DNA of 64,000 bases from the NCBI GenBank assembly GCA_933228895.1, contig OW121850.1, positions 30,885,773-30,949,772 on the forward strand, given 5' to 3'. Positions 1,465-27,506 of the stretch are shown here, piece by piece (the first letter of the stretch is position 1; each line of letters starts with the position of its first letter). The position numbers and the translations under genes were made by a program. This DNA is from Platycnemis pennipes (Eukaryota; Arthropoda; Insecta; Odonata; Platycnemididae). The notes beneath the pieces are model-generated. The model searched no databases, was not told the origin of the DNA, and was given only the letters and a program-made list of their open reading frames with translations.

Positions 1465-4059
1465 ATTCCACTTCATTCGATATTTCCACTTCATTTTGAT
1501 ACATATTCCAATTACACTATGAGCCAACGGAAAAATTCATATACTAAGAGAGGTGTACTTTGTTCACCTTTTGCTATCTTGACCAAAGTTGCCCTTCCTG
1601 CGTTGTTGTCAAAAAAAAGTCGATAAGTTGACGCCTAGCGATATAATATTCTCCAAGCGGGATGTACTATATATATGCTTGCAATTTCACAAAAAATGCC
1701 ATTTCTTTTGCGTAATCAGTTGTGAGTCCTGAAGATTGATTAAAAAAATAATTGCGTTTCTTAATTTGGCTTTGTAAGTCGTCTAAAGACACGATCAGAA
1801 GTACTACAACCTGAAGGTAAAAAAAGGAACCCTTCAAACAGGGATTTTAGGGTGTATATCTCGCGCCTGAACAACATCGGGGTTATCTGGATAAGATCGA
1901 TGTTGATTCCAGATAAAACGAAGTCGGTCAGGCACGGGAATTCTTCGTCGTAACCTACGTGGGGAAGATAGATCACTGTGGATGTATAATCTCTACGCTT
2001 GCTTGCTCACGGGCAACTATCGCGACTAACGTCATGGTGGTGTTCTACGAAACGAACTTTCGAGGTTGTGTTTTTCCTTTACCCGGCAAGGTTCCAGGAG
2101 GCAGATGACTTCTCTCCGGATATCTCGGATGCCGCTCTCTTTTTTTCTTCTGGTGCGGTTTAATAGGAAAGGCGTAGAAATCCTTTTACACATAAAACTT
2201 CTTGACTCGACGCGATAGTAGATATACTTTAATGCCCTCGATTTCGAGGTACGTAGAAAGGTTGGTGATTCGGGAACTTTCTTCATCCGTAGATTTTTTT
2301 CCCTCCCACCCGGAGTTCAACTTACGGAAGTTTACGGTCGATAGCACTCATTTCCTCGCGATGGCAGGTTGACGGTTGGACATATAAGATGACAAATGGC
2401 GCTGGGAATTAAGGGACTTGGATAGTACCTCATATTATCCAGGTTGGAATAAAACTTTGGGCTCAATTGACCAAGCGCCTAAGAACATTCTTTATAGCTT
2501 TAATCGGTCTTACTCTTCTCTTGGATGTGTCTGGTTTGTGGTCAAATTTATTATTTTCATAAGGAAAATTAATGAAATTGCAAAGTATTTATCAAAGTTT
2601 ATATTTAGTAACTAGCTACTAACAAAATATCCATTTGACAATGGACTATTTCTGTTAAGAGGCCTTTTGTTATTTTTACTGAAGTATCAGAATTCTAGCG
2701 CTTCTATAAAGAAATCAATAAACGTGAATAGCCCGATAATTTTTAATATTTAATAAAATATTACATTTTGCGTTTACTGTAATGAGCACAGTAAAAATCA
2801 TCGGATTGGCGTCATTAAATTGAGTGAAAGTTATGCATTGCTTGGTAACAAAATCATTATTATTATTACTATGAATAATGGCGTGAGGTTATTTATGGTG
2901 AGCTTTTTATGGTCAATTTTTTTTGTAATATCTATACTCTTTTAGTACTTTGTTTATAGCCATAAGTAAATAATTAGATCAGTAAAATCCACAGGATTGT
3001 TAAGAAAATTAAATTTATAGGACGTCCTTTCCTATTGCTCATTTTCAAAAAAATGTTTTCATTTCTAGGTTCAGTATTGCAAATGATAGTCTTTTGCTGG
3101 AAATGTCAAGCTGAAGCCTGGTATTGAAGTTGATCCTAGTGGTAATTTATCATTCTATGTTTTATCTATCAACATATACATCTACCACATCAAATTATAA
3201 TGCCTACTAATAATGAATTGTAATATACCTAGAGTATTCATTATAACCGTAGATAAATTTGGGAACATTTCCTCAAATGAAGTTTATAAATTGATCATTG
3301 TACATATATTTTGATTAGGGAAATTGCTGTCAATCGCAGTAAAGTTCGGGTACCGAAACAACTGAAAAAGGTAAGAATAGGAATAATTTCTGGTTTATCT
3401 CATCCTAATTTGGCAGTTACAGTATTCGAGCACAGCATATTAACCCAAAGTTATATTTTGCTCGGTTAAGATCAAGTTGACTTCATTCAACTTAGAAATA
3501 AACAAATTAGATACGACTCTGAATGATAATTTGCATTGCTGGCCTATTGATATCGATAAGGAGGTTATAATATACCGGAGGAGGATTCGCAGCTGTTTTG
3601 AGAAGCCAGCGGCCATCTTGGTAGGTACGGGCATACGGGCTTCCTACTCACGAAACTCGTGCGGATAAAGTAGTCTTTCGCACGGGAAACTTAAAGCAGT
3701 GAGATGAATAATGTAGGATGCCTTTAAAATGCGTCAAAAACAGATAAGTGCACAAACACGCCAAAATCTCCAAATGTCTTGTTTAAATAAGATAAATTCG
3801 AACCAGTTGTAGCGATTTAGAAGCGAAGTTGACTCCCAGGTAATAATATGCCTTTATACCCCTTTAATATCCCTAGTAAGATTATTTGGTTCGATTGCGA
3901 GGAATTTCGGGTTCAATTCCATTTGCGTATTAACACCCATGCCGTCCCCATAAGAGGCCGTATGAATAACAATACTTTGTTCGGAGTAGGTGAGGCCCTA
4001 TCGTTCCCAAGCACCCATATTCTGGCTTCATTGTTACGCATAGGCTAGCGTGCCCATGC

Positions 4060-4760
4060 CTCTTCCAAATACATTGGGTAAATGTGACGAACATGTACGA
4101 GAAATCAGCTACTTTTCCCTTGTAAGACCTCATTTGGAATATGCTGCCAGTTTATGGGATCCCTACGAAATCGGTCTAAATAATGAACTTGAACGTGTGC
4201 AGCGAAGATCGGCATGATTTCTAAAGGGACGGTACGATAACTGTATTAGCGTAACCAGTCCATTAAATGAATTAAAATGGGAATCATTGTCAAATCGCAG
4301 GTTGAAATTTAGATTCTTAATCTCCTAAATAAACAAGATAATATTTTCAGTGACGACGTTGAAAATATTTTGCGAACCCCAACTTACTATGGTAGACTGG
4401 ACCATAATTACAAAATTAGAGAAATAGATTGCCGAACAGACAGATTCAAAATGTCCCTTTTTCCTCGTGCAATTTGGGATATGAATAGCAGTAAATATGT
4501 CCAATACGAGTGAATCAATCCATAGCATAGGTAGGTAGTTGCACGTTGGTGTAAGGACTTGAACGTAACCCAACTACCAGCACGTTTTTGCATGCTTAGT
4601 TTGCTATTTCCATCTTTTTAAATAGTGCAGTTTAGACTAATATATTAACACTAATCCTTTTTTATGCATGATATGTAGTGCATGTTTGGCAAGAATTCAG
4701 CCCCTGCCACACACCTTTGTGGTGACTTGCAGGGTATTATGTAGATGTAGATGTACATTC
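4060..4760 (+). pseudogene. LINE 3' fragment: end of reverse transcriptase plus 3' tail
   Basis: The + strand encodes the C-terminal end of a LINE reverse-transcriptase polyprotein. From 4062 the frame contains SLVRPHLEYAASLWDP and ELERVQRRSA, the conserved 'LVRP.LEYA..W.P..VQRR' block seen at the end of RT in many arthropod CR1/Jockey-type LINEs. It is broken by an in-frame stop just after the QRR motif (about 4216), another stop near 4327 and a frame change, after which RTPTYYGRLDHNYKIREIDC continues to about 4490. A short 3' UTR follows, ending in the hairpin and GATGTA tail near 4701-4756. Only the extreme 3' end survives, as expected for 5'-truncated LINE insertion. The clade assignment is tentative. 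A homologous relic lies at 37.9-38.55 kb. Confidence 0.8.
4701..4756 (+). repeat. LINE 3'-terminal hairpin and GATGTA tail, copy 1
   Basis: CCTGCCACACACC pairs imperfectly with GGTGACTTGCAGG, followed by TATTATGTAGATGTAGATGTA. The same arrangement recurs at 5174-5230 (-), 38491-38552 (+) and 51845-51895 (-), so it is a family-specific 3' end, probably the RT recognition structure. Confidence 0.75.
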
Positions 4761-9181: not shown

Positions 9182-9189
9182 CTGCAGAT
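9182..9189. repeat. 8-bp target-site duplication of FB-A, left
   Basis: CTGCAGAT immediately precedes the CAAGG terminus and is repeated exactly at 13708-13715, immediately after the CCTTG terminus. It fits the nTnnnnAn target preference often described for hAT elements. Confidence 0.95.
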
Positions 9190-9322
9190 CAAGGTCCGTG
9201 TATATCAGGTCGTGACACGATCCCATGATGCACCTTGATTTAGCCATTTTGTTTCGGAGGAACGGCGGGAATTCGAATTTCACATGCAAACAAACGTAGG
9301 TAATCGATGCAAAGTACCACAA
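9190..9322 (+). repeat. FB-A left TIR, non-array part
   Basis: It aligns with the reverse complement of 13575-13707. The shared blocks are the outer ~31 bp (CAAGGTC.GT..ATATCAGGTCGTG), then CCATTTTGTTTCG, then CGGCGGGAATTCGAATTT and CATGCAAACAAACGTAGG. A stretch between the first two blocks differs between the ends, so the TIR is diverged in the middle and conserved at the tip and next to the array. Confidence 0.9.
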
Positions 9323-11080
9323 TTTGCTGTTTTACTATTGGAGACAAATATATGAAATTTTTACCCTGTATAAGGGAAATAAGGGCCTTTTGGAAGCAGT
9401 TCTCGCATCACACCTGGAGGTCGTGGGTTCGACTCCAAAAATCTTAGAAATCACACATCCACCGCGCCAACGTACCATCACCTTAATTACAAGGAACCAC
9501 GATTTGCTGTTTTACTATTCACGACAGGTATATGAATTTTTTACCCTGTATAAAGGATATAAGGGCCTTTTGGAAGCAGTTCTCGCATCACACCCTGAGG
9601 TCGTGGGTTCGACTCCAAAAATCTTAGAAAACTCGCTTCCACCGTGCCAACGTACCATCGCCATATTTACAATGAACCACGATTTCTTGTTTTACTATTA
9701 TAGACAGATCTATGAATTTTTTACCCTGTATAAAGGATATAAGGGCCTTTTGGAAGCAGTTCTCGCATCACACCCGGAGGTCGTGGGTTCGACTCCAAAA
9801 ATCTTAGAAATTACACATCCACCGCGCCATATTTACAATGAACCACGATTTGCTGTTTTACTATTATAGACAGATCTATGAATTTTTTACCCTGTATAAA
9901 GGATATGAGGGCCTTTTGGAAGCAGTTCTCGCATCACACCCTGAGGTCGTGGGTTCGACTCCAAAAATCTTAGAAATTACACATCCACCGCGCCATATTT
10001 ACAATGAACCACGATTTGCTGTTTTACTATTGGAGACAGATCTATGAATTTTTTACCCTGTGTAAAGGATATGAGGATCTTTTGGAAGCAGTTCTCGCAT
10101 CACACCCGGAGGTCATGGGTTCGACTCCAAAAATCTTAGAAAAGTCGCTTCCACCGTGCCAACGTACCATCGCCATATTTACAATGAACCACGATTTCTT
10201 GTTTTACTATTATAGACAGATCTATGAATTTTTTACCCTGTATAAAGGATATGAGGATCTTTTGGAAGCAGTTCTCGCATCACACCCGGAGGTCGTGGGT
10301 TCGACTTAAAAAATCTTAGAAATTATACATCCACCGCGCCTTATTTACAATGAACCACGATTTGCTGTTTTACTATTGGAGACAGAGCTATGAATTTTTT
10401 ACCCTGTATAAAGGATATGAGGATCTTTTGGAAGCAGTTCTCGCATCACACCCGTAGGTCGTGGGTTCGACTCCAAAAATCTTAGAAATTACACATCCAC
10501 CGCACCAACGTACCATCGCCATATTTACAATGAACCACGATTTGCAGTTTTACTATCGGAGACAGATCTATGAATTTTTTACCCTGTATAAAGGATATGA
10601 GGATCTTTTGGAAGCAGTTCTCGCATCACACCCGGAGGTCGTGGGTTCGACTCAAAAAATCTTAGAAATTACACATCCACCGCGCCAACGTACCATCGCC
10701 ATATTTACAATGAACCACGATTTGCAGTTTTACTATTGGAGACAGATCTATGAATTTTTTACCCTGTATAAAGGATATGAGGATCTTTTGGAAGCAGTTC
10801 TCGAATCACACCCGGAGGTCGTGGGTTCGACTCAAAAAATCTTAGAAATTACACATCCACCGCGCCAACGTACCATCGCCATATTTACAATGAACCACGA
10901 TTTCCTGTTTTACTATTGGAGACAGATCTATGAATTTTTTACCCTGTATAAAGGATATGAGGGCCTTTTGGAAGCAGTTCTTGCATCACACCTGGAGGTC
11001 GTGAGTTCGACTCCAAAAATCTTAGAAATCACACATCCACCGCGCCAACGTACCATCGCCATATTTACAGTGAACCAGGA
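9323..11080 (+). repeat. FB-A left satellite arm, 10 monomers of 180/166 bp
   Basis: The T-arm-like GGTCGTGGGTTCGACTCC (and close variants) recurs with the base after its GG at 9421, 9601, 9781, 9947, 10113, 10293, 10459, 10639, 10819 and 10999. Spacings are 180 bp except three of 166 bp, where CAACGTACCATCGC (14 bp) is missing. The 180-bp length is a multiple of three, so a frame reading LLEAVLASHPEVVGSTPKIL stays open across runs of monomers but breaks at 166-bp units and at TCGACTTAA (10301). I regard this as satellite DNA, not a gene. Confidence 0.93.
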
Positions 11081-12460
11081 GAAGATAGGTACCAGAAGGA
11101 GCAGATGAGTTAGTAATTGGTTGAAGTGGATTTCCGTGATTGCGATGGAGTGAAACTTAGAGGAAACCATATCATTTACTGATATTTCGAGGCAACCAGT
11201 AGTGGAGGGGCATGTAAGTTCATTCAGCCAATAACATGAGTAAGTCATTTGCAGATCCTGCTGTTCCAACTCTGACTAGTTGGTTTTCGTTTACAGAATA
11301 CGGCCCCTGGCAATTCATCATCTTCAAACATGTCACCATATACAGAATTTTGATTGAAATCAATGGATGTGGTAGGCATGCTCAAGGAATGTTTAAGAGT
11401 GTAAGAAAAGGAGCAGATGAGTAGGTGGAGTTGTGTGAAATGAGTTTGCGTAAGCCATGCCATTCATTGTTATTTCGAGGCCACCAGTAATGGAGGAGCA
11501 TGTAAGATCATTTAGTCGATTACATGAGTATGGTATTTGCAGTTCCTGATCTTCCAACTGTAACTAGTTGCATTCATTTACAGAATATGACCCTAGTCAA
11601 CTCTGTATGTTTCAACCTGTCACCATATGCAGAAAGTTGATTGAAATTAATAGAAGTGGAAGGCGTGCTAAGGGAATGTTTAAGAGTGGTTGAAAAGTTG
11701 CAGATGACTTACCAGCGTTGGATGAAGTGAGTTTCACTGTATGCGAATGAGCAAACCAGTTGAAACTAAACCATAAAGGTGTCATGTAATGAAGTACATT
11801 GATTGTAATTTTGGAATGAAGTCAATCAATATTATTTTATGATTAAAATATCCTTTTCCTTCTCGGATTTTTTTGCAGGAAATATTCAGTGCTAATTCGT
11901 AATATTCCAATCAAACGAAATGTTAACTACCTTGATTAGATGTTGAAGGCATTATCATGGTAAGTACTGAGTGCAATAAATGATGCCTCTTTTCGATTCC
12001 TCATCCTGTCTTAGTATCTTGAAAGTTTATTTACTTTGGCCTGTATTTCCTTATTTTTGTGTAATAATTAAATAGTGAAAGTTACATGAAAGTAAAGAAA
12101 ATAAATAAATCAAAATTTACACGCTCAGTTGAAGATCATTAACTCAGGAGATGGATTCAATACACATCTATCTGCCAAATATAACTGATTATTACATTCC
12201 ATTAATAATTTTCAGGAGCCATTGCTGATAATTTGTATGACCTCCATCATTCATGGCATTAAAATATTTTCCTTATATCTGACTCTGTGCACTCCATGGT
12301 TGTTAATGTGACAGTTCCACCAATCATATAGGACTCAAATTGCAGCATTCTGGTGTACATAGGTAGTGTAATGTTTTAAGTAAATTAATGTTGCAGCAAA
12401 AATGTTTAAGAAAAAGAATAAGTATAATATTTATAGACTTGTCCATGAATGTTACACCGG
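11081..12460. other. FB-A central unique region
   Basis: This is the 1.4-kb centre between the two arms. It holds a degenerate direct repeat at 11099-11720 and then AT-rich sequence. The short open frames have no recognisable domain. The same sequence lies inverted at about 24,130-25,509. No transposase remnant is evident. Confidence 0.75.
11099..11720. repeat. degenerate ~300-bp direct repeat in the FB-A centre
   Basis: GGAGCAGATGAGT at 11099 recurs at 11408 and, weaker, as TTGCAGATGACTTA at about 11698. Between these anchors the units share TATTTCGAGGC.ACCAGTA, ACATGAGTA, a TTTACAGAATA.G.CCC motif, GTCACCATAT.CAGAA and GAATGTTTAAGAGTG. There are two full units plus the start of a third, roughly 309 and 290 bp apart. 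Confidence 0.8.
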
Positions 12461-12470
12461 GGTGAACTAT

Positions 12471-13577
12471 TCATAGATCTGTCTCCAATAGTAGAACAGA
12501 CAATTCGTGGTTCTTTGTAAATATGGTACGTTGGCGCGGTGGAAGCGAGTTTTCTAAGATTTTTGGAGTCGAACCCACGATCTCCGGGTTTGATGCGAGA
12601 ACTGCTTCCAAAAGGCCCTCATATCCTTTATACAGGGTAAAAAATTCATATACCTGTCTTGAAAAGTAAAACAGCAAATCATGGTTCCTTGTATATACGG
12701 TGATGGTACGTTGGCGCGGTGGAAGCGCGTTTTCTAAGATTTTTGGAGTCGAACCAACGACCTCCAGGTGTGATGCGAGAACTGTTTCCAAAAGGCCCTC
12801 ATATCCTTTATACAGGGTAAAAAATTCATATACCTGTCTTGAATAGTAAAACAGCAAATCGTGGTTCCTTGTATATACGGTGATGGTACGTTGGCGCGGT
12901 GGAAGCGCGTTTTCTAAGATTTTTGGAGTCGAACCAACGACCTCCAGGTGTGATGCGAGAACTGCTTCCAAAAGATCCTCATATCCTTTATACAGGGTAA
13001 AAAATTCATATACCTGTCTTGAATAGTAAAACAGCAAATCGTGGTTCCTTGTATATACGGTGATGGTACGTTGGCGCGGTGGAAGCGCGTTTTCTAAGAT
13101 TTTTGGAGTCGAACCAACGACCTCAGGGTGTGATGCAAGAACTGCTTCCAAAAGGCCATCATATCCTTTACACAGGGTAAAACATTCATAGATCTGTCTC
13201 CAATAGTAAAACAGCAAATCGTGGTTCATTGTAAATATGGCGATGGTACGTTGGCGTGGTGGAAGCGAGTTTTCTAAGATTTTTGGAGTCGAACCCACGA
13301 CCTCAGGGTGTGATGCGAGAACTGCTTCCAAAAGGCCATCATATCCTTTATAAAGGGTAAAAAATTCATATACCTGTCTTGAATAGTAAAACAGCAAATC
13401 GTGGTTCCTTGTAATTAAGGTGATGGTACGTTGGCGCGGTGGATTTGTGATTTCTAAGATTTTTGGAGTCGAACCCACGACCTCCAGGTGTGATGCGAGA
13501 ACTGCTTCCAAAAGACTCTTATATCCTTTATACAGGGTAAAAATTTCATAGATTTGTCTCCAATAGTAAAACAGCAA
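12471..13577 (-). repeat. FB-A right satellite arm, 6 monomers in opposite orientation
   Basis: The reverse complement of the T-arm-like word (GGAGTCGAACC.ACGA) begins at 12565 and recurs every 180 bp through about 13465, giving six regular units. On the - strand one 368-codon frame is open through all of them. The inner unit adjoins the sequence TTCATAGATCTGTCTCC near 12470; the outermost monomer adjoins the TIR. No start, splice or domain signal argues for a protein. Confidence 0.93.
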
Positions 13578-13707
13578 ATTGTGGTTCTTTGCATCGATTT
13601 CCTACGTTTGTTTGCATGGGAAATTCGAATTCCCGCCGCGAAGTCGAAACAAAATGGCGGATTACATTAGACAAATGCGTGTCACGACCTGATATTTACC
13701 GACCTTG
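13575..13707 (-). repeat. FB-A right TIR, non-array part
   Basis: This is the inverse partner of 9190-9322. It is identical in design to the inner end of FB-B (22883-23015), so each element has one end with the GATCCCATGATGCACC variant and one with the CATTTGTCTAATGTAATCC variant. Confidence 0.9.
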
Positions 13708-13715
13708 CTGCAGAT
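13708..13715. repeat. 8-bp target-site duplication of FB-A, right
   Basis: CTGCAGAT, an exact copy of 9182-9189, directly follows the element terminus. Removing the element and one copy joins the flanks ...GGAGGTA and GACACCAAG. Confidence 0.95.
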
Positions 13716-16466: not shown

Positions 16467-16600
16467 AGCTGCGTCCGAATTCACTATCGAGGATCCTTCG
16501 AAGGACGCATATCCGTCCTTCCGAGGACGGCGGCCATCTTGAAGGACGTCCGAATTTCTTGAGCCTCCTCGCAAGGGTCCTCGCGAGGGCGCTTCCATCG
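16467..16600 (+). repeat. Harbinger left TIR and GGACG-rich subterminal region
   Basis: The perfect 16-bp terminal repeat is followed by alternating AAGGACG, CGTCC and CGAGGA words on both strands, including GTCCTTCCGAGGAC. These look like clustered binding sites for the SANT protein or nuclease; that role is inferred. Confidence 0.8.
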
Positions 16601-16792
16601 AGGATGTAAAGGGTGCACACTTCAACGTGTCCTTGACGGCCATGTTGGACTGTTGCCCCATGGGTGGATGATTTCCGCATCACGCCATGCATTTGTTTGT
16701 AACAACCTCAACACCACTCAACACGAACCTCATCCACAATCAACCATCTTGGAATTCTTTGAGGGAAGATACGTGTGTGCTGCTCCGGAAAA

Positions 16793-19195
16793 ATGGAAAA
16801 TTTCACTTTCAAATGTAAGTTTCATCGGGCGTACGTTTATAATTTATCCCATTTATGTATAAATTTAAGTGGTGTATTGCATTTCATTTCAGGGACCAAA
16901 GAAATGACGGAGCAGCTTGTGCGTAATCGCAAAAAGAACGCTGCCCTGTTCTCAGGGAAAAAGAACTCCGCAGCAAACGCGTGGAGGTAGGTTTATGTAG
17001 ATGTTAATATTTTTGTAAGTTAATGTTAATTATTGTCCTTTTGACAAAAGCTAAGATTATTAGTTTTTAAGTAGCCGCGGTGTTTTTCTTTTACAGGGTA
17101 GTCATTGAGGAGCTACATCTAGAGGGCAGCGTCACTGTGAAGCAGTGTAAGAAGAAGTGGGACAATTTAGTCCAAAAATACAAGGTAAGAAAATAATCCA
17201 ATTACGTCCGTTATGTCCTGTCTGTTGAAGGGAAAAGTTTTTTATTTGGGGTAATTATTTCGTGTAACATTCATAACAAAACTTACAGAAGTAGGTAGTT
17301 GTTATCATTCATTTGATAGCGTTTTCGTTGGCTACTTTATTTGCGTTGGGTGCGCTTTTAGATTCCTGTGTTTACCTAGAAATTCATTAAATGAATATTT
17401 TTTGGCTATAAACTTAAAATTCCGCTGTAGTGTAGTGTATTAGGCGTGAAAGCTAGGAATGGAAGTAAAGATATCAATAGTTCTTGCCTTTTTAACATTA
17501 ACGAGAAAGTCACTCACAATGGGTATGAAACTTAAAACAACTTCTAGAATCTCATTCAGGTTACCTTAAGTTTTCACCAGAAATGTAATTTCGCAATACA
17601 TAAATCTTTCTAAATCATGATATGCTTCTAATCTAAATAAATGGTGTACAGGCTAGCATCCGAGTTTATACAAAGCATTTCTGGTCGCATGTAAATAACT
17701 GTCGAAAAACAAATAATATCGTATGTGCAGTAACCTACTGTAGTATTAAGGGGTGTAATCATTATAATAATTCAAATGTAGTGGCTAAGTACTTTTCTGG
17801 AGTTTATTCCATCAAGGATAATAATTTACTGTACCTCATTTTAATTTCAACCATCGTATTAATATTTCAATATTGAATATTGCTGTTGATGAAATAGAAC
17901 AAAAAAACATTTGAGGATAACAAGTAACAAAGAGCCCTGGTGCTGACAAGTTACCCCCATTGCTAATCAACAACTATTGTGATGCCTGTTTTATCTAATT
18001 TCTTAAAAACTTTGTCATTCCAGTGAATGACAGTGGTAACAAATATGAAGTAAATAACTTAACACATAGTTATCCAATCTGTTTTTTTAAAGATGCTTGA
18101 AAGTTTGATTGCAAATAGACTAACCCCTCTAGTTTATGATGTTGTACTGGATGAACGACAGGGATTTAGGAGTGGTAGATCTACTGCCACCAACCTGTTA
18201 TGTTTTCAGTATTTTGTCACTACCACAGCACATGATCATTACCAAGTTGATACTATTTACTGTGATTTTAGTGAAGCAGTTGATAAGGTCTGTCATGCTA
18301 TGCTTCTAGCCAAGCTTAATGCTATAACAATAATAAATATATTGAGGTAAAAAACCCATTTACTAAGTAAATTTGGTGTACTTACAATGGATATGATACA
18401 TATGACCAGAGATGCCATGTGCATTTAGCTTAGCTAGTGGAATGTTATGGTTAATTTTATCAAAAGCTTGGGAAAAATCTGTGTAAATGGAATGAACCTG
18501 ATAACCTTGATGTTTGCAGCTTGAAAAAGTTTGGGAAACACTGCTGTCAAACATAAAGATTAATATTTTCCATTGTGAAACAATTATTCCCTTGGTGCTT
18601 GCCACTACATAGCTAATATCTTTCTGGGATGGAACTTGCTAAGAACTTGGGGTATTAAGTTATACATTATTACATCAGGAATTTCATATTGAGTGTGAAG
18701 TTATGGCTTCAGTTATATCAGGATGTCAAGTTATTCACATCTCTTTTCCAATACCTTCAGGAACTCAAAACCCCGAGGACAGGGAGTGGGCGAATGGAGG
18801 GAGGAGATTGCGCCGACACATGGCCCTATTTTGAGCTGATGCACTGGGCTATAGGCGAAAGAGACGCCATATGTCCTCCGTCTATTTTTGATTCCACTGA
18901 AGATCCCTCCCTTGCAAACCCCACTTCACCTTCCACCCATCCTGATTCAGCAGATAGTCCCCTCCCATCATCTTCCCGATCCCTTACTCCCGAACCCCAG
19001 TGCCCCGTTACCCCAAAGCCCAGTGCATCAGCCAATAGAAAAAGGAGGCGACTGCATTCCAGCAGTGAAGAAGATTTGCAGTCAGCCTTGGCTGCAATCG
19101 TAGAAAACTTAAATGAAGCTGGTAAGCAGAGGGCTGAATTCGTAGCGCTATTTGCAAAAGCAGTGGAGTCTTTGACTGCAAATAAAGACAAATGA
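16793..19195 (+). CDS. Harbinger SANT/Myb-like DNA-binding protein (4 exons, 212 aa)
   Basis: In PIF/Harbinger elements the Myb/SANT-like protein binds the transposon ends and helps the nuclease reach DNA in the nucleus. The exons I infer are 16793-16814, 16893-16986, 17097-17184 and 18761-19195, with GT...AG junctions at each (GTAAGT, GTAGGT and GTAAGA donors). The joined frame is open throughout. MENFTFKWTKEM begins the domain. Tryptophans at about residues 8, 38 and 60 (KWTKEM, ANAWR, KKKWDNL) have SANT/Myb spacing, and HWAIGERDAI follows near residue 97. The middle is Ser/Pro-rich, a basic NRKRRR (about 153) could be a nuclear signal, and the last 40 residues look helical. It ends 1.6 kb from the convergent nuclease gene. 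Start chosen because the first exon supplies the residues before W8. Intron 3 is swollen by RT relics. Confidence 0.85.
17930..18350 (+). pseudogene. reverse-transcriptase fragment inside SANT intron 3
   Basis: KSPGADKLPP (near 17930) and, after stops, MLESLIANRLTPL, DERQGFRSGRSTATNLL and IYCDFSEAVDKVCHAMLLAK match the fingers/palm start of Jockey/I-type LINE RT, whose usual motif is 'DFS.AFDKV.H..LL.KL'. No catalytic YADD region is present. It lies within the 17185-18760 intron and is not part of the SANT coding sequence. Confidence 0.8.
18363..18605 (-). pseudogene. second reverse-transcriptase fragment, inverted
   Basis: On the - strand the frame reads IYTDFSQAFDKINHN and LAKLNAHGISGH, the same RT segment as 18,255-18,330 but diverged and in opposite orientation. 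The two pieces form an imperfect inverted repeat around a short spacer near 18,360, within the SANT intron. Confidence 0.8.
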
Positions 19196-20791
19196 AAAAA
19201 AATAACATTTGTATTCATTTACCTTTGCAGTCTTCCACTGCAGAAGTTATCATGTGTGCCATTCATTACTTTTACATCGGCTAATTAATCTTTTTGTGCC
19301 ATAAAAGGTCCATTTTCCATAGTGGAACATGTTATTAATAATTTCACAGATAGCTTGAAACTAAATTAGACTAAAAGTTTTTATTTTATTCGTTACCGTG
19401 AATATGCTATTAATAATTTTTTCATAAAACATGTCCTCCAATGAGAGTGCCAAAAAGCACGTTATTTCTGAGCATTTGTCAAGAATTCCTATTCTGTTCC
19501 CCAGGAGTTATGTACATGGTTTGAAAGCTTTAATTCCTATAAAACATGCACTCAACATATTTCGTTAATGAATAAGGTACTTCATATTATTTTCCCATAG
19601 ACCTATCAATGTTACTTGAATGCGGAATGTAAGCACGAAAAGCGTTTAGTTCCCATATTTTATTAGGAACCAATGCTGGAAGAATCTTAAAGCTTAGGTA
19701 AATGCCTTAAAATAAAGTGAGACATTGCTCCATTGTGAGACCAGTTGAGAGATGAAGGATTCAATTTTTGTTTCCACGCGAAAAAAAAGATGTCGATCTG
19801 AGCCTACGATAAAATGTTTTGGAACTGAAAAGGTAAGGAATAAGGTGAGAAGAAATAGCCGGTGTCGGCATTAACCTAATCACGACGAATCACACCAAGG
19901 GGTTCATATTTCATTAATGAATAAGGTACATATTTATTTCCCATAGAAAACTTGTTTCCTACACTAATTTGTCCATTCAATGCTCTTCACTCCCTCAGGA
20001 TTAAGATTATGGGAATACAATGTCTTCATTCTGTTGCCAAAAAGCTCTCTGAATGTCACTTACTGATATGCCGAAAAAATTTGTAGAACTTCACGAGGCT
20101 CTAAATCTGTGCCAAGCACCAATTGTCATTTCCTGCTTCTCATTATGTGCCTGCATGTTACCATAAAGCTGCTGGCTATGAAAACATTTCGTTCCCTACG
20201 ATCAACTTATAAGCACTTTACCTGGTCCCCTACTATTTGATGGACAATTTTCTCTGCAATTACATTTGGTTTACCTAACTTGGTGAGCATAGTTCAATCA
20301 TGCCAAGGCACTTCTTATTACATATAAATTCTTCTCTAACAATGGCTATTATGTTGAATAAAGCAAGACATTTTGTACTTTATGGTCCACACTGAAATTC
20401 AAGTTTAATAGTGAACTTTGTTATTTAAAATAGCAGTTTAGCTTAATAAGAAGTTCGATAACACTAATAAGAATACTATTAGGCTGAAACAATGGATTGT
20501 AAAACTATACCTACACGTAGTGTTTATACTTAGAATTATCACAAAAATACTCAATGGATTCAACTGGAAGCCATGCCATTTACAAACAGTTCAAGTCTTC
20601 AACTTTACTGCACATACAAATTCACCATTGTGGATGCCAACCATGGAAAGGGTCTAATCACAACTTTCAATAACAGTTCCTATGTCCATCTCACCATAGA
20701 ATTACCCAAATGTATGAAAACGTCTTAGGTTTGAGGCAATAAAATCAAATATTCCAATCATTCCTTTACTTTTTTTATTAACATAAACATT
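19196..20791. other. non-coding spacer between convergent Harbinger genes
   Basis: About 1.6 kb with no recognised gene. A word AATGAATAAGGTAC with flanking TTTCCCATAGA occurs twice (near 19567 and 19917), a diverged direct repeat about 350 bp apart. AATAAA on the - strand at 20779-20774 lies just beyond the nuclease stop and could be its polyadenylation signal. Confidence 0.5.
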
Positions 20792-22251
20792 TTAAAAGTA
20801 ATCATGCTCATTAAGATGAGGTGGTAACTGTTGTGGTCTCGAAATGGCTGCAGCAATGCCATCTCTCAAGCGAAAGCCAGGCACCTGATTCAAATCCTGG
20901 GGAGCAGGAACAGGGGGTGCTGCAGCATCTGCCTGCTCCACTGGGGCTATATCCCCGTTTCTTATGCATATATTATGCATAATGCAGCATGCCCCAATAA
21001 CATTAGCAACTTTGGTATGTTTCACTGGGACACGCTGCATGAAAATGCACCTCCACCTACTCTTCAGCATTCCAAAAGCCCTCTCTATAATATTTCTCCC
21101 ACGCCGGTGGTGGTAATTATATCTGGCCTGAACATTTCCCTCTACTGGTTCCCTATAGGGAGTCATTATTGCTATTGGTTCCCTGATACACGGATACCCA
21201 CTGTCCCCCAGAATGGCATAACCCTGGGGAGGATAACTGGCTGCCATCAGGCTGCTCTCTCGCAGAACCCTTGCATCATGAACGGAGCCAGGATAGCCCG
21301 CAAAGAGATGAATAAAGCACCCCTGGTGGTCACAAACAGCCTGAAACTGAATGCTGTACCTCAGCTTCCGACTGAAATAGTCAGCTTGATGAGGCCCTCC
21401 TGCAATAAGTAAGCATTGCAGTTATAAATAAGTGAAAAAAGCTGAACCAGGATCATTGCCTATGAATATTTACAGCTTTCAATTTGCCAAACGAATAAAA
21501 GGGGCAGAGAGAATAAGCCCTGATTCATTTAGCTAATTTCCAAATTGACAAGTGAAAAGAAGTAGTCACAACATAGGGACAAAAATACCTGCTACAATCT
21601 CCACATGACAACCATCTATTGCTCCCACGATGTTTCTAAATTCCTCCGTTCGTGAAAGGGCCACAAAACCTCGTCCAATTCCTTCCAATTCCTCACCCAA
21701 AGGCAAACGAATAACCCTTCTCCGAAGAGCGACAACCTTCCTCATCATCTGATGCACCATCTGATGGACACTGGATTTCGGCACATGGAATGATGTACTG
21801 ACCACCCTGTATGAGGCTCCACTTGCCAACCAGAACAAAAACACGGCAAGTTTCAACTGCTGATCCCAGCCACTTCTCTGTTCTGTCATAATCAGCTGCA
21901 GGAGGTTGTGGAAGGATTCCCTGGATTCCCTGTTTTTTCATCTCCCACCCATCGCTCAGGAGAGCCCTTATCAGTTGCTGCTCCCTGTTCATGATGGCAT
22001 ACCTAGCTGGAGGAGCCTGGTAGGAAGAGTAAATTGTCCTTATATTTCATTGCTACAAGTACACAGAGGATATGTCGTCATATTAACTTGGATTGCATTG
22101 AAAAACTATTTCAGCTAATCCTTACCTGATTGATCCTTAGTACAGCTGCCATATGCACCAATAGCACGGCACATAAAGCAACTACTCCTTCCCACTGCTG
22201 CAGGTCGTCATGCCAATTGGCGGCCATCATCAGCAACATTTCCCTATCCAT
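20792..22251 (-). pseudogene. PIF/Harbinger DDE nuclease (transposase), 3 exons with one frameshift
   Basis: This is the enzyme that would cut and paste the Harbinger element. On the - strand I infer exons 22251-22126, 22016-21589 and 21399-20792, with GTAAGG and GTATTT donors and CAG acceptors. Removing one base would give 387 codons including the stop. Exon 1 starts MDREMLLMMAANWHDD. Exon 2 holds the helix-turn-helix-like ASYRVVSTSFHVPKSSVHQM and GAIDGCHVEIV (first catalytic Asp, about residue 176). Exon 3 has GYPGSVHDARVL, ILGDSGYPC (second Asp, about 250) and RNIIERAFGMLKSRW (catalytic Glu, about 290), ending LNEHDYF. All three DDE residues are therefore present. The frame shifts inside a run of six T (+ strand 21933-21938), between GWEMK and SFHNLL. 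That is either an inactivating indel or a homopolymer error. FB-B sits 624 bp upstream of the start. Confidence 0.88.
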
Positions 22252-22874
22252 ACTAATCCAAAACTAGTCCTATACGAATTACATAATAAATACAAAATCA
22301 AGTAAATACTACAATTCGCCTACAGAAATGCATCGAATATCACTTCACTCTATAACCAAAACTTAAGATAAACATATTATACGTGAATTACAGCCTATAT
22401 TACAAAAACTAAAAAATATCTAGTTCAACACGAAATGTATATCAATAGTAACTGAATCAATAATATCTCAATTCGAGGCATAACCTCATCACTAAATTCA
22501 GCTCTCCATTCCTACGTACAAAAAAGGTAAAAATCCCACACCTAATTGAAAAATTAATCAGGTTAACTATAGCAAATAAATGTAGTGATTAAAATTGAAT
22601 ACTACAATAGAAACGACATAAACTATGCAACATGTCCTAAAAATTGCTCTTTCAAACTCCGGAAAAAACTGAAGCCTATTAGATAATTATTCTAAATGTA
22701 AATAAACTACAGAAACCAAAAATTACAATTAACTAACCTCACAAAAAAGCGATAATAACCACAATAGGCACAAGGTCTAATTTATCTCATTAAAGGCAAA
22801 GGATATCGGGATTTGCGATAGTCTTTTACTTTTTAGTACTCTTTCTCTCTCGGAGATGGCAGCGCTACGCACTG
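22252..22874. other. upstream region of the nuclease gene
   Basis: AT-rich, no gene recognised. It should contain the nuclease promoter and the internal part of the right subterminal region, now separated from the right TIR by FB-B. Confidence 0.5.
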
Positions 22875-22882
22875 GAACTGTC
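22875..22882. repeat. 8-bp target-site duplication of FB-B, left
   Basis: GAACTGTC precedes the CAAGG terminus and is repeated at 27401-27408. It differs from the FB-A target CTGCAGAT, so the two copies are independent insertions. Confidence 0.95.
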
Positions 22883-23012
22883 CAAGGTCGGTAAATATCA
22901 GGTCGTGTCACGCATTTGTCTAATGTAATCCGCCATTTTGTTTCGACTTCGCGGCGGGAATTCGAATTTCCCATGCAAACAAACGTAGGAAATCGATGCA
23001 AAGAACCACAAT

Positions 23013-24119
23013 TTGCTGTTTTACTATTGGAGACAAATCTATGAAATTTTTACCCTGTATAAAGGATATAAGAGTCTTTTGGAAGCAGTTCTCGCATCAC
23101 ACCTGGAGGTCGTGGGTTCGACTCCAAAAATCTTAGAAATCACAAATCCACCGCGCCAACGTACCATCACCTTAATTACAAGGAACCACGATTTGCTGTT
23201 TTACTATTCAAGACAGGTATATGAATTTTTTACCCTTTATAAAGGATATGATGGCCTTTTGGAAGCAGTTCTCGCATCACACCCTGAGGTCGTGGGTTCG
23301 ACTCCAAAAATCTTAGAAAACTCGCTTCCACCACGCCAACGTACCATCGCCATATTTACAATGAACCACGATTTGCTGTTTTACTATTGGAGACAGATCT
23401 ATGAATTTTTTACCCTGTGTAAAGGATATGATGGCCTTTTGGAAGCAGTTCTTGCATCACACCCTGAGGTCGTTGGTTCGACTCCAAAAATCTTAGAAAA
23501 CGCGCTTCCACCGCGCCAACGTACCATCACCGTATATACAAGGAACCACGATTTGCTGTTTTACTATTCAAGACAGGTATATGAATTTTTTACCCTGTAT
23601 AAAGGATATGAGGATCTTTTGGAAGCAGTTCTCGCATCACACCTGGAGGTCGTTGGTTCGACTCCAAAAATCTTAGAAAACGCGCTTCCACCGCGCCAAC
23701 GTACCATCACCGTATATACAAGGAACCACGATTTGCTGTTTTACTATTCAAGACAGGTATATGAATTTTTTACCCTGTATAAAGGATATGAGGGCCTTTT
23801 GGAAACAGTTCTCGCATCACACCTGGAGGTCGTTGGTTCGACTCCAAAAATCTTAGAAAACGCGCTTCCACCGCGCCAACGTACCATCACCGTATATACA
23901 AGGAACCATGATTTGCTGTTTTACTTTTCAAGACAGGTATATGAATTTTTTACCCTGTATAAAGGATATGAGGGCCTTTTGGAAGCAGTTCTCGCATCAA
24001 ACCCGGAGATCGTGGGTTCGACTCCAAAAATCTTAGAAAACTCGCTTCCACCGCGCCAACGTACCATATTTACAAAGAACCACGAATTGTCTGTTCTACT
24101 ATTGGAGACAGATCTATGA
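23013..24119 (+). repeat. FB-B 6-monomer satellite arm
   Basis: Six 180-bp units, T-arm-like GGTCGT(G/T)GGTTCGACTCC in each, starting near 23108 and spaced exactly 180 bp. One frame is open through all six (368 codons). It is the inverse of 12471-13577. Confidence 0.93.
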
Positions 24120-24129
24120 ATAGTTCACC

Positions 24130-25509
24130 CCGGTGTAACATTCATGGACAAGTCTATAAATATTATACTTATTCTTTTTCTTAAACATTTTTGCTGCAAC
24201 ATTAATTTACTTAAAACATTACACTACCTATGTACACCAGAATGCTGCAATTTGAGTCCTATATGATTGGTGGAACTGTCACATTAACAACCATGGAGTG
24301 CACAGAGTCAGATATAAGGAAAATATTTTAATGCCATGAATGATGGAGGTCATACAAATTATCAGCAATGGCTCCTGAAAATTATTAATGGAATGTAATA
24401 ATCAGTTATATTTGGCAGATAGATGTGTATTGAATCCATCTCCTGAGTTAATGATCTTCAACTGAGCGTGTAAATTTTGATTTATTTATTTTCTTTACTT
24501 TCATGTAACTTTCACTATTTAATTATTACACAAAAATAAGGAAATACAGGCCAAAGTAAATAAACTTTCAAGATACTAAGACAGGATGAGGAATCGAAAA
24601 GAGGCATCATTTATTGCACTCAGTACTTACCATGATAATGCCTTCAACATCTAATCAAGGTAGTTAACATTTCGTTTGATTGGAATATTACGAATTAGCA
24701 CTGAATATTTCCTGCAAAAAAATCCGAGAAGGAAAAGGATATTTTAATCATAAAATAATATTGATTGACTTCATTCCAAAATTACAATCAATGTACTTCA
24801 TTACATGACACCTTTATGGTTTAGTTTCAACTGGTTTGCTCATTCGCATACAGTGAAACTCACTTCATCCAACGCTGGTAAGTCATCTGCAACTTTTCAA
24901 CCACTCTTAAACATTCCCTTAGCACGCCTTCCACTTCTATTAATTTCAATCAACTTTCTGCATATGGTGACAGGTTGAAACATACAGAGTTGACTAGGGT
25001 CATATTCTGTAAATGAATGCAACTAGTTACAGTTGGAAGATCAGGAACTGCAAATACCATACTCATGTAATCGACTAAATGATCTTACATGCTCCTCCAT
25101 TACTGGTGGCCTCGAAATAACAATGAATGGCATGGCTTACGCAAACTCATTTCACACAACTCCACCTACTCATCTGCTCCTTTTCTTACACTCTTAAACA
25201 TTCCTTGAGCATGCCTACCACATCCATTGATTTCAATCAAAATTCTGTATATGGTGACATGTTTGAAGATGATGAATTGCCAGGGGCCGTATTCTGTAAA
25301 CGAAAACCAACTAGTCAGAGTTGGAACAGCAGGATCTGCAAATGACTTACTCATGTTATTGGCTGAATGAACTTACATGCCCCTCCACTACTGGTTGCCT
25401 CGAAATATCAGTAAATGATATGGTTTCCTCTAAGTTTCACTCCATCGCAATCACGGAAATCCACTTCAACCAATTACTAACTCATCTGCTCCTTCTGGTA
25501 CCTATCTTC
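24130..25509. other. FB-B central region
   Basis: Inverse of 11081-12460, including the degenerate ~300-bp direct repeat (here 24,870-25,491). No recognisable gene. Confidence 0.75.
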
Positions 25510-27267
25510 TCCTGGTTCACTGTAAATATGGCGATGGTACGTTGGCGCGGTGGATGTGTGATTTCTAAGATTTTTGGAGTCGAACTCACGACCTCCAGGT
25601 GTGATGCAAGAACTGCTTCCAAAAGGCCCTCATATCCTTTATACAGGGTAAAAAATTCATAGATCTGTCTCCAATAGTAAAACAGGAAATCGTGGTTCAT
25701 TGTAAATATGGCGATGGTACGTTGGCGCGGTGGATGTGTAATTTCTAAGATTTTTTGAGTCGAACCCACGACCTCCGGGTGTGATTCGAGAACTGCTTCC
25801 AAAAGATCCTCATATCCTTTATACAGGGTAAAAAATTCATAGATCTGTCTCCAATAGTAAAACTGCAAATCGTGGTTCATTGTAAATATGGCGATGGTAC
25901 GTTGGCGCGGTGGATGTGTAATTTCTAAGATTTTTTGAGTCGAACCCACGACCTCCGGGTGTGATGCGAGAACTGCTTCCAAAAGATCCTCATATCCTTT
26001 ATACAGGGTAAAAAATTCATAGATCTGTCTCCGATAGTAAAACTGCAAATCGTGGTTCATTGTAAATATGGCGATGGTACGTTGGTGCGGTGGATGTGTA
26101 ATTTCTAAGATTTTTGGAGTCGAACCCACGACCTACGGGTGTGATGCGAGAACTGCTTCCAAAAGATCCTCATATCCTTTATACAGGGTAAAAAATTCAT
26201 AGCTCTGTCTCCAATAGTAAAACAGCAAATCGTGGTTCATTGTAAATAAGGCGCGGTGGATGTATAATTTCTAAGATTTTTTAAGTCGAACCCACGACCT
26301 CCGGGTGTGATGCGAGAACTGCTTCCAAAAGATCCTCATATCCTTTATACAGGGTAAAAAATTCATAGATCTGTCTATAATAGTAAAACAAGAAATCGTG
26401 GTTCATTGTAAATATGGCGATGGTACGTTGGCACGGTGGAAGCGACTTTTCTAAGATTTTTGGAGTCGAACCCATGACCTCCGGGTGTGATGCGAGAACT
26501 GCTTCCAAAAGATCCTCATATCCTTTACACAGGGTAAAAAATTCATAGATCTGTCTCCAATAGTAAAACAGCAAATCGTGGTTCATTGTAAATATGGCGC
26601 GGTGGATGTGTAATTTCTAAGATTTTTGGAGTCGAACCCACGACCTCAGGGTGTGATGCGAGAACTGCTTCCAAAAGGCCCTCATATCCTTTATACAGGG
26701 TAAAAAATTCATAGATCTGTCTATAATAGTAAAACAGCAAATCGTGGTTCATTGTAAATATGGCGCGGTGGATGTGTAATTTCTAAGATTTTTGGAGTCG
26801 AACCCACGACCTCCGGGTGTGATGCGAGAACTGCTTCCAAAAGGCCCTTATATCCTTTATACAGGGTAAAAAATTCATAGATCTGTCTATAATAGTAAAA
26901 CAAGAAATCGTGGTTCATTGTAAATATGGCGATGGTACGTTGGCACGGTGGAAGCGAGTTTTCTAAGATTTTTGGAGTCGAACCCACGACCTCAGGGTGT
27001 GATGCGAGAACTGCTTCCAAAAGGCCATCATATCCTTTATACAGGGTAAAAAATTCATATACCTGTCGTGAATAGTAAAACAGCAAATCGTGGTTCCTTG
27101 TAATTAAGGTGATGGTACGTTGGCGCGGTGGATGTGTGATTTCTAAGATTTTTGGAGTCGAACCCACGACCTCCAGGTGTGATGCGAGAACTGCTTCCAA
27201 AAGGCCCTTATTTCCCTTATACAGGGTAAAAATTTCATATATTTGTCTCCAATAGTAAAACAGCAAA
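25510..27267 (-). repeat. FB-B 10-monomer satellite arm
   Basis: Inverse of 9323-11080, with the same mix of seven 180-bp and three 166-bp spacings and the same variant units, such as the TTAAGTCGAAC unit near 26281. The shared variants show that both copies descend from one source with this exact array. Confidence 0.93.
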
Positions 27268-27400
27268 TTGTGGTACTTTGCATCGATTACCTACGTTTGT
27301 TTGCATGTGAAATTCGAATTCCCGCCGTTCCTCCGAAACAAAATGGCTAAATCAAGGTGCATCATGGGATCGTGTCACGACCTGATATACACGGACCTTG

Positions 27401-27408
27401 GAACTGTC
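27401..27408. repeat. 8-bp target-site duplication of FB-B, right
   Basis: GAACTGTC, identical to 22875-22882, resumes the Harbinger sequence, which continues to its right TIR about 90 bp further on. Confidence 0.95.
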
Positions 27409-27506
27409 CGGATTCATTCGTCCTCGAGGAAGATCCTTGTTACCTTGCGACCTCTCCTTGTCATCCCTCCTTGAGTCCTTGCGTCCTTCCGAATTCGGAC
27501 GCAGCT
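27401..27506 (-). repeat. Harbinger right subterminal region and TIR
   Basis: Ends GAATTCGGACGCAGCT, the exact inverse of 16467-16482, followed by ATA. CGTCC, CTCGAGGA and TCCTTG words mirror the composition of the left end. Confidence 0.85.

Follow-up and report, generated by a model that had tools for sequence, protein, structure and literature searches.

The question raised by this locus is which transposase moves a 4,518-bp mobile DNA element (copy A, 9190-13707) that runs from CAAGG to CCTTG between perfect 8-bp duplications, CTGCAGAT, within the window, the 64,000-nucleotide stretch of DNA that we analyzed. An earlier note on the same DNA had described a non-autonomous foldback-type element and suggested that a hAT-like enzyme moves it. 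Its coordinates, length, ends and duplication all proved exact, and the opposed arrays that it had counted as 10 and 6 monomers of about 180 bp around a 1.4-kb centre were recovered by TRF as 10.0 and 6.3 copies. The features of copy A are as follows.

9182..9189, no strand: left 8-bp target site duplication of copy A, CTGCAGAT
9190..13707, + strand: copy A, probable non-autonomous foldback element of the P superfamily, 4,518 bp
9190..9219, + strand: left outer terminal repeat, 30 bp, 27/30 identical to the right end
9190..9267, + strand: 78-bp left terminus; the THAP/P-transposase-bearing copy at G000:C3:146181825 begins with the same sequence (100% identity)
9268..9315, + strand: link of right-arm-type sequence (not transposase gene) leading into the left array; putative inverted-right-arm junction
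9316..11077, + strand: left array of ten monomers, each 180 or 166 bp long (TRF, 10.0 copies x 180 bp)
11080..12460, + strand: centre, about 1.38 kb, which occurs complete or in fragments at 16 of the 20 loci fetched, and also in the C3 copy, after its transposase gene
11183..11734, + strand: tandem 287-bp dimer within the centre, 78% matches; an additional related unit is present in the C3 copy
12027..12033, + strand: point (element position ~2840) without the 1.26 kb that loci L024 and L025 and the C3 copy carry
12469..13591, - strand: right array, opposite orientation, 6.3 monomers (TRF)
13678..13707, - strand: right outer terminal repeat, 30 bp
13708..13715, no strand: right 8-bp target site duplication of copy A, CTGCAGAT

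What had been described as terminal inverted repeats (TIRs) of about 130 bp are indeed inverted ends, but their make-up is composite: the 30-bp outer repeat is followed inward by an unrelated patch of about 20 bp and then by 72-77 bp at 88-89% inverted identity. Because this last stretch continues directly into the arrays, in which three of the ten left monomers are of the 166-bp length, the inverted similarity of the two arms reaches about 1.2 kb. With long inverted arms of tandem repeats flanking a middle domain, copy A has the structure of a foldback element. TIRs of the P superfamily begin with CA, and the short outer repeat of copy A begins with CAAGG and is identical at 27 of its 30 positions, within the range of about 27-31 bp given for P-type ends (PMC1562414). 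Six-frame translations of the centre revealed no transposase, the best matches (E 0.066 and 0.27) being below cut-offs.

The same window holds a second insertion of the element, overlooked in the earlier note, which differs from copy A at 4 of 4,518 bases (99.911% identity over exactly the same length) and has a target site duplication of its own.

22875..22882, no strand: 8-bp target site duplication of copy B, GAACTGTC
22883..27400, - strand: copy B, second insertion of the copy A element, inverted
27401..27408, no strand: 8-bp target site duplication of copy B, other side

Copy B lies inside a PIF/Harbinger element (16467-27506, with a 16-bp TIR and ATA on either side). Inverted copies this similar, separated by a few kilobases, are a possible substrate for inversions.

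A genome search with the 30-bp terminus pattern gave 193 matches at up to two mismatches, a number that counts both ends and all terminus classes, and none with the reversed control pattern. Both ends could be placed for 16 non-autonomous copies, two in the window and 14 among the 20 fetched loci (at the other six the right end was not found within the fetched stretch), and 15 of these 16 have a perfect 8-bp duplication, including 13 of the 14 outside the window; L025 has a 7-bp duplication in a shifted register. The earlier note was thus right about a multi-copy, non-autonomous family of foldback type with 8-bp duplications. A CAAGGTG stretch in L079 was a false lead as a terminus (16/30). 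In the 15 elements measured in full, the number of monomers of at least 150 bp varies from 3 to 15 in the left arm and from 2 to 21 in the right. The outermost monomers form a positional class: the mean divergence between the first left and first right monomers (L1-R1) is 7.3%, versus 9.7-12.4% between either of them and the other classes (218 of 268 monomers compared, leaving out the near-duplicates copy B and L039 and pieces shorter than 150 bp). A 394-aa protein encoded in L023 matches no Pfam family and seems to be nested.

The earlier note had asked for an autonomous relative with the same termini, and our search found two transposase-bearing copies. At C3:146181825, the first 78 bp are 100% identical to 9190-9267 and are followed by a THAP-domain gene, a P-type transposase domain and the family's own centre, in that order. 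The ATG stands at element position 124, 46 bp past the identical stretch, and the 51 codons read match the THAP domain (PF05485, 2.3e-9, 38.3 bits against a cut-off of 23.9; partial, 51 aa). The P-type RNase H domain (PF21787, 1.2e-28, 100.5 bits, cut-off 24.6) lies on the same strand, 2.36 kb inward from the terminus, and among PDB sequences it matches, up to E 1, the P transposase alone (6p5a/6pe2, 1.2e-9). Downstream of it, the centre matches at 95.96% over 940 bp and 96.7% over 421 bp. Its right arm breaks off at the array boundary, where other sequence takes over, and the fetched sequence contained no right end, nor one with the expected duplication.

The second copy, of 17.6 kb (C24:1263561-1281139, minus strand), carries a perfect AATGCGCC on each side, the two 17,579 bp apart, and thus has the same 8-bp duplication length as the non-autonomous copies; 401 bp and the 41-bp left edge of this interval were read. 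Its left end and THAP exon match at 97% and its catalytic exon at 99%. The right end corresponds to that of the family (27/30, 93% over 60 bp); next to it come roughly one monomer and the beginning of the centre (94.8% over 306 bp). Because this arm lacks the sequence from R position ~62 to the monomer, the lone monomer may be a contracted array. The transposase genes of both copies were read in parts, as incomplete reading frames, and PF21789, the C-terminal part of the RNase H domain, was not listed at either copy among 150 scored of 738 candidates. In the genome as a whole, the catalytic exon occurs at five places, and the terminus match continues into the THAP exon at 7 of 40 scored places, ending at base 78 in the other 33.

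Common termini and 8-bp duplications thus occur at many sites, with the left end and centre shared by the C3 copy and both ends by the C24 copy. Because of these shared ends, we regard copy A as a non-autonomous derivative, foldback in shape, of a THAP/P-superfamily transposon rather than of a hAT element, and as mobilized in trans by its low-copy relatives through their THAP-domain P-type transposase (probability about 0.88). This transposase, which would bind and cut copy A-type ends, is most likely the mobilizing enzyme, since its gene lies behind the same end in the same genome.

The helper might instead be another P-type element with related ends, for instance one of a third terminus class, CAAGGTCCGTCTATATCAGG. 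This class is frequent among the 100 listed terminus places, and the genome contains at least 150 P-type domains above cut-off. Against this, the 78-bp left end is identical in the C3 copy and 33 other scored places, and we consider such a helper improbable.

A hAT transposase, the earlier proposal, is very unlikely to be the enzyme. The hAT terminal consensus is compatible with a CAAGG end, and the 8-bp duplication would also fit. We examined the target sites of 37 termini (L025, L050 and L057 were dropped from 40) and found enrichment of G at position 1 (21/37, p=0.0015) and C at position 8 (20/37, p=0.0002), compared with 4-12 and 6-13 in windows shifted by 4-12 bp. Both agree with the P target consensus GTCCGGAC (PMC3276498). 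G at position 6 (19/37, p=0.01) would not survive correction for the eight positions tested, C at position 3 reaches 14/37 (p=0.065), and the other P-consensus positions are not enriched (T2 9/37, C4 6/37, G5 13/37, A7 12/37). With hobo also preferring GTNCGNAC (PMC3276498), the motif does not decide. The hAT consensus NTNNNNAN is not enriched (T2, p=0.35; A7, p=0.097), the gene behind the same end is of P type, and comparison by eye showed no hAT match within 40 kb of a terminus (150 scored of 6,070 candidates versus the 100 termini listed out of 193, which all lie on contigs C1-C10).

A Mutator-like origin is still less credible. The Mutator-type foldback elements FB, Phantom and Tm1 resemble the copy A family in their repetitive foldback TIRs, but have a Mutator transposase and mostly 9-bp duplications. 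The Tm1 repeat is about 14 bp (PMC3169594). Tetris/DAIBAM of Drosophila virilis is a foldback element whose TIRs contain tandem repeats of about 220 bp that also form satellite-like arrays, but its duplications are 8-10 bp, no transposase was found for it, and its authors assign it to Mutator, where most foldback elements have been placed (PMC4079207). Here the duplication is exactly 8 bp in all but one of the 16 non-autonomous copies, the ends are CA...TG and a P gene lies behind the same end. That the locus is a satellite array, segmental duplication or assembly artefact can practically be dismissed: the arrays do resemble satellite DNA, and same-strand monomers, among the matches listed, extend over about 5.9 kb at C44:149995179-150001117, but flanks and perfect duplications differ from copy to copy.

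The closest precedent found for the copy A family is Galileo of Drosophila, a likeness drawn from published descriptions. Galileo is described as having a P-superfamily transposase with a THAP domain, foldback-like, long, internally repetitive TIRs with unequal numbers of tandem repeats, many copies without transposase, and duplications of 7 or 8 bp (PMC3573991, PMC4168063, PMC3688188). In contrast, the duplication here is 8 bp, the outer inverted repeat is just 30 bp, the unit is about 180 bp with up to 21 per arm (Galileo repeats are about 140 or 210 bp), and C24, the one transposase copy with its right end read, has about one monomer on the right and none in the first 276 bp on the left. 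P-MITEs of Anopheles gambiae are likewise non-autonomous, with P-element ends, TIRs of 27-31 bp, 8-bp duplications and an unrelated interior, but the named families are mostly 205-675 bp, and no foldback arrays are described in the available part of that account (PMC1562414).

How did the foldback form arise? In this form, the left end changes beyond position 78 to sequence of the right-arm type. The most likely course is that the transposase gene gave way to an inverted right-arm copy and that the monomer went on to multiply in the left and the right arm. The ancestor would have had the layout left terminus, transposase gene, centre, right arm; after loss of the gene, the inverted right-arm copy would have become attached to the left terminus through a few bases common to both, CGGCG (element positions 74-78), the outcome that template switching during repair of an excision gap would predict, although this junction homology is just 5 bp. 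The ~180-bp unit would then have multiplied inward of the conserved outermost monomer.

The reverse order, in which the foldback form is ancestral and the transposase copies derive from it, by contraction of the right arm in C24 and C3 or by entry of a P gene into a long-armed element, seems unlikely. In its favour, the C24 right arm lacks the sequence before its monomer, the C3 right arm is interrupted at the array boundary, and Galileo transposase copies are described with long TIRs (PMC3573991, PMC4168063). Against it, the 1.26-kb segment of C3 is shared by just L024 and L025 among the 16 fetched loci with a centre, and the left-end switch looks like a secondary join. In addition, the seven terminus-THAP matches include divergent members (84-88%), so the join of terminus and THAP exon is old.

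One genome may preserve the whole path from an ordinary P element to a foldback satellite element: from a transposase-bearing ancestor with about one subterminal unit, through copies with the ancestral 1.26-kb segment and a flipped centre, to a family with up to 21 units per arm, in which the arrays would be a competitive device. We offer this scenario tentatively, at somewhat less than even odds. The foldback family outnumbers its relatives (193 terminus matches, both ends and all classes, versus the five catalytic-exon places), and the arrays would, if the scenario is true, be many THAP binding sites capturing a scarce transposase. The arrays probably serve the transposase as additional binding sites, a role reported for Galileo. 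The origin and role of long repetitive arms have mostly been argued from end products, because foldback elements, such as Tetris, often lack a transposase. With transposase relatives, extra-segment copies and finished foldbacks in one genome, gene loss, inverted arm transfer and array growth become datable and testable, and a THAP domain is available along with the array that it may bind.

Other readings of the arrays were tried. Open frames of up to 368 aa run through them, but these are probably not genes, since the 180-bp unit keeps frame and the 368-aa frame has no match at 1e-3 among 972 candidate proteins. Its whole-protein Pfam scores for SMC_hinge (29.7 bits, cut-off 22.5) and ARL2_Bind_BART (26.6, cut-off 23), for which no single stretch passed, are taken as sums over repeats. 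Because 154 of 218 monomers contain a B-box-like GGTTCGANTCC in exact form, we considered a tRNA/SINE origin, which we do not claim: Rfam gave no tRNA match in the window at gathering, in the element at E 5 or in one monomer at E 10, and ARAGORN found no tRNA gene. An octamer, AGGTCGTG, common to the termini and the monomer was dismissed as evidence, because 203 of 500 shuffled monomers also share an octamer. Distant blastn gave no match in phages or plasmids, nor did IMG/VR contigs match two exact patterns. Through the copy A family, P elements are connected with satellite-like DNA. Further P-type genes of the genome also adjoin tandem arrays, of 114-bp units by a 750-aa frame and of 186-bp units by an 866-aa frame, which would suggest, under the tentative scenario above, that the path from P element to foldback element was taken repeatedly.

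Re-analysis of the window bore out the structure that the earlier note had described at 9190-13707 (its length, ends, 8-bp duplication, opposed arrays and centre), and a second copy lies nearby within another transposon:

9190-13707: copy A of the foldback element, 4,518 bp, with CAAGG...CCTTG ends and a perfect CTGCAGAT duplication on each side
22883-27400: copy B, inverted relative to copy A, with its own duplication GAACTGTC and 4 differences in 4,518 bp
16467-27506: PIF/Harbinger element holding copy B, with a 16-bp TIR and ATA on both sides

The arrays of copy A comprise 10 and 6.3 inward-facing monomers (units of ~180 bp) around a 1.38-kb centre. When its ends are compared, 27 of the outer 30 bases are equal, ~20 bp are unlike, and similarity of 88-89% then extends into the arrays. 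The match between the two copies stops exactly at the element ends, and copy B is therefore a separate insertion. At two neighbouring differences, 9561 and 9563, copy B has the same bases as right monomer 2, an indication of exchange between arms. The Harbinger element contains a DDE_Tnp_4 match (1.4e-18) in a 151-aa frame at 20795-21247 on the minus strand; the best protein match of its transposase is HARBI1 of Ischnura elegans (66%), and further named matches are mostly from fish, together with ticks and a starfish, so that this only weakly hints at a host insect near Odonata.

A search for further copies in the genome containing the window (1.79 Gb, 88 contigs), as the earlier note had proposed, found many. 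The left 133 bp gave 234 first-look candidates, the best 40 of which were scored, all at 98-100%. A terminus pattern allowing up to 2 mismatches matched 95 times forward and 98 times in reverse (reversed-pattern control, 0); 100 of these 193 matches, on contigs C1-C10, were listed by position. Twenty of the 38 scored places outside the window were fetched, ~9.9 kb each. Both ends were found in 14, and the duplication is a perfect 8 bp in 13 of these and 7 bp in locus L025; in the other six loci the right end was not found within the fetched sequence. Thirteen of the two-ended copies measure 3,266 to 7,351 bp. The remaining one, L034, reaches ~9.5 kb with a retrotransposon nested in its centre, and its outer duplication GTCTGGGT is intact. 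Counts of monomers no shorter than 150 bp, taken over the other 13 two-ended copies and the two in the window, are 3-15 for left arms and 2-21 for right arms. Pieces of the centre, at ~95-100% identity, occur in 16 of the 20 loci; two of the 16, L024 and L025, have an inverted centre with respect to the arms, with 1.26 kb of extra sequence. L029 and L039, 5,002 bp each with 4,991 identical positions, form another recent pair, since their duplications differ.

The retrotransposon in L034 (3471-7571 of the oriented sequence) has a 1,367-aa open frame that reads as Gypsy-like. In L023, a 394-aa open frame without a Pfam match (3515-4696, minus strand of the oriented sequence) adjoins the disrupted right array, beside a 790-aa frame that by eye resembles a non-LTR retrotransposon. 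Among the termini listed, a third class, CAAGGTCCGTCTATATCAGG, has ends that face one another across 3-5 kb (for example, C9:87469590-87472618 and C4:148522599-148527664).

The earlier note had proposed a hAT-like enzyme and a search for a transposase-bearing relative with the same termini; such relatives exist, and their gene is P-type. P-type transposases are very abundant in this genome: the profile of their RNase H domain (PF21787) gave 718 first-look candidates, and all 150 scored exceed the cut-off. A comparison of these 150 and the 100 termini listed, made by eye, placed one domain 2.36 kb downstream of terminus C3:146181825 (+), on the same strand; the next closest pair among the matches listed is separated by ~74 kb. 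The first 78 bp of this C3 copy are identical to 9190-9267. An ATG at position 124 opens a frame in which the initial 51 codons correspond to the THAP domain. For the catalytic piece, the PF21787 match has an E-value of 1.2e-28, and the sequence match to the P transposase structure 6p5a one of 1.2e-9. Downstream lies the family centre (positions 1904-2843 at 95.96% and 2838-3255 at 96.7%), its parts separated by 1.26 kb, the final 464 bp of which, the part read, match the extra sequence seen in L024 and L025 at 98.5-98.7%. The copy is broken by other sequence at the array boundary, and no right end was located in what was fetched. A query of terminus plus THAP exon entered the exon in 7 of 40 scored places (100, 97 and 84-88%) and matched only 78 bp in the other 33; the catalytic exon has five places in the genome.

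A second such copy lies on C24 and has a right terminus. Its left flank is AATGCGCC. Genome-wide, CCTTG followed by AATGCGCC was matched at 18 sites (8 for the reversed control); the single C24 site is on the correct strand, and 17,579 bp separate it from the left end. This terminus equals the right end of the element in the window at 27 of 30 bases (93% over 60 bp); inward lie about one monomer and then the beginning of the centre (94.8% over 306 bp). The copy was read directly over 401 bp and 41 bp, the remainder being alignments reported by the searches.

Foldback and transposase-bearing copies have ends, duplications and centre in common, and in the latter the shared left end leads into a P-type gene. 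Foldback copies would be cut and pasted in trans by the transposase of their low-copy relatives. For 78 bp the foldback left end tracks the transposase-bearing copy; it then becomes right-arm-type sequence, switching at CGGCG, which is common to all three sequences. The gene would have been lost when an inverted right-arm copy was attached to the left terminus. The flipped centre of L024 and L025 is consistent with exchange between inverted arms.

Target sites agree with P only in part and are insufficient as sole evidence. In duplications from 37 of 40 termini (three dropped), position 1 is G in 21 (p=0.0015) and position 8 is C in 20 (p=0.0002); G at position 6 (19 of 37) is weaker (p=0.01 for a single position of 8 tested), and T at 2, C at 4, G at 5 and A at 7 showed no enrichment. 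In windows shifted by 4-12 bp, G1 counts were 4-12 and C8 counts 6-13. In 51 half-sites, T occupies -2 in 47% and A or G occupies -1 in 70%. Consensus targets in an excerpt of PMC3276498 are GTCCGGAC for P, GTNCGNAC for hobo and NTNNNNAN as the older hAT consensus.

Because P-superfamily foldback elements are known (Galileo), this kind of element is not new. Searches of an open-licence library turned up no publication on the present family. It differs from Galileo in the extent of its arrays, in its short outer repeat and in that one transposase-bearing copy holds about one monomer. For Galileo, PMC3688188 places THAP-domain binding ~70 bp from the end and at additional positions within the tandem repeats; the arrays here may, by analogy, bind transposase.

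Among 218 monomers, the outermost ones of left and right arms diverge from each other by 7.3% on average, compared with 9.7-12.4% between either of them and the other classes. Non-outermost monomers, with their own element left out, have nearest neighbours mostly on the same side. The closest monomer lies in another element for 128, in the same element for 70, with 20 ties. Given the likeness of the outermost monomers and this nearest-neighbour pattern, arrays turn over inside a conserved edge, with limited homogenisation within elements. Monomer positions 71-133, which include the B-box-like GGTTCGANTCC, are more conserved than the remainder (0.964 vs 0.896); a search for a tRNA fold in the monomer found none. 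Among the matches listed, same-strand monomers at C44:149995179-150001117 span at least about 5.9 kb, exceeding every arm measured, and are perhaps a free satellite array.

Several of the P-type matches contain frames open over 700-880 aa, and several fall into sets that share both score and frame length. Long tandem arrays were seen in two of 21 short stretches adjoining P-type genes:

L076, 258-1260: 114-bp tandem units upstream of a 750-aa frame
L080, 226-924: 186-bp tandem units downstream of an 866-aa frame

Only short arrays were seen in L060, L068 and L069. Pieces matching PF21789, the C-terminal part of the domain, lie at C8:37854136-37854237 (minus) and C11:63692595-63692693 (minus), 2-3 kb outside the family termini C8:37856788 and C11:63690364, respectively.
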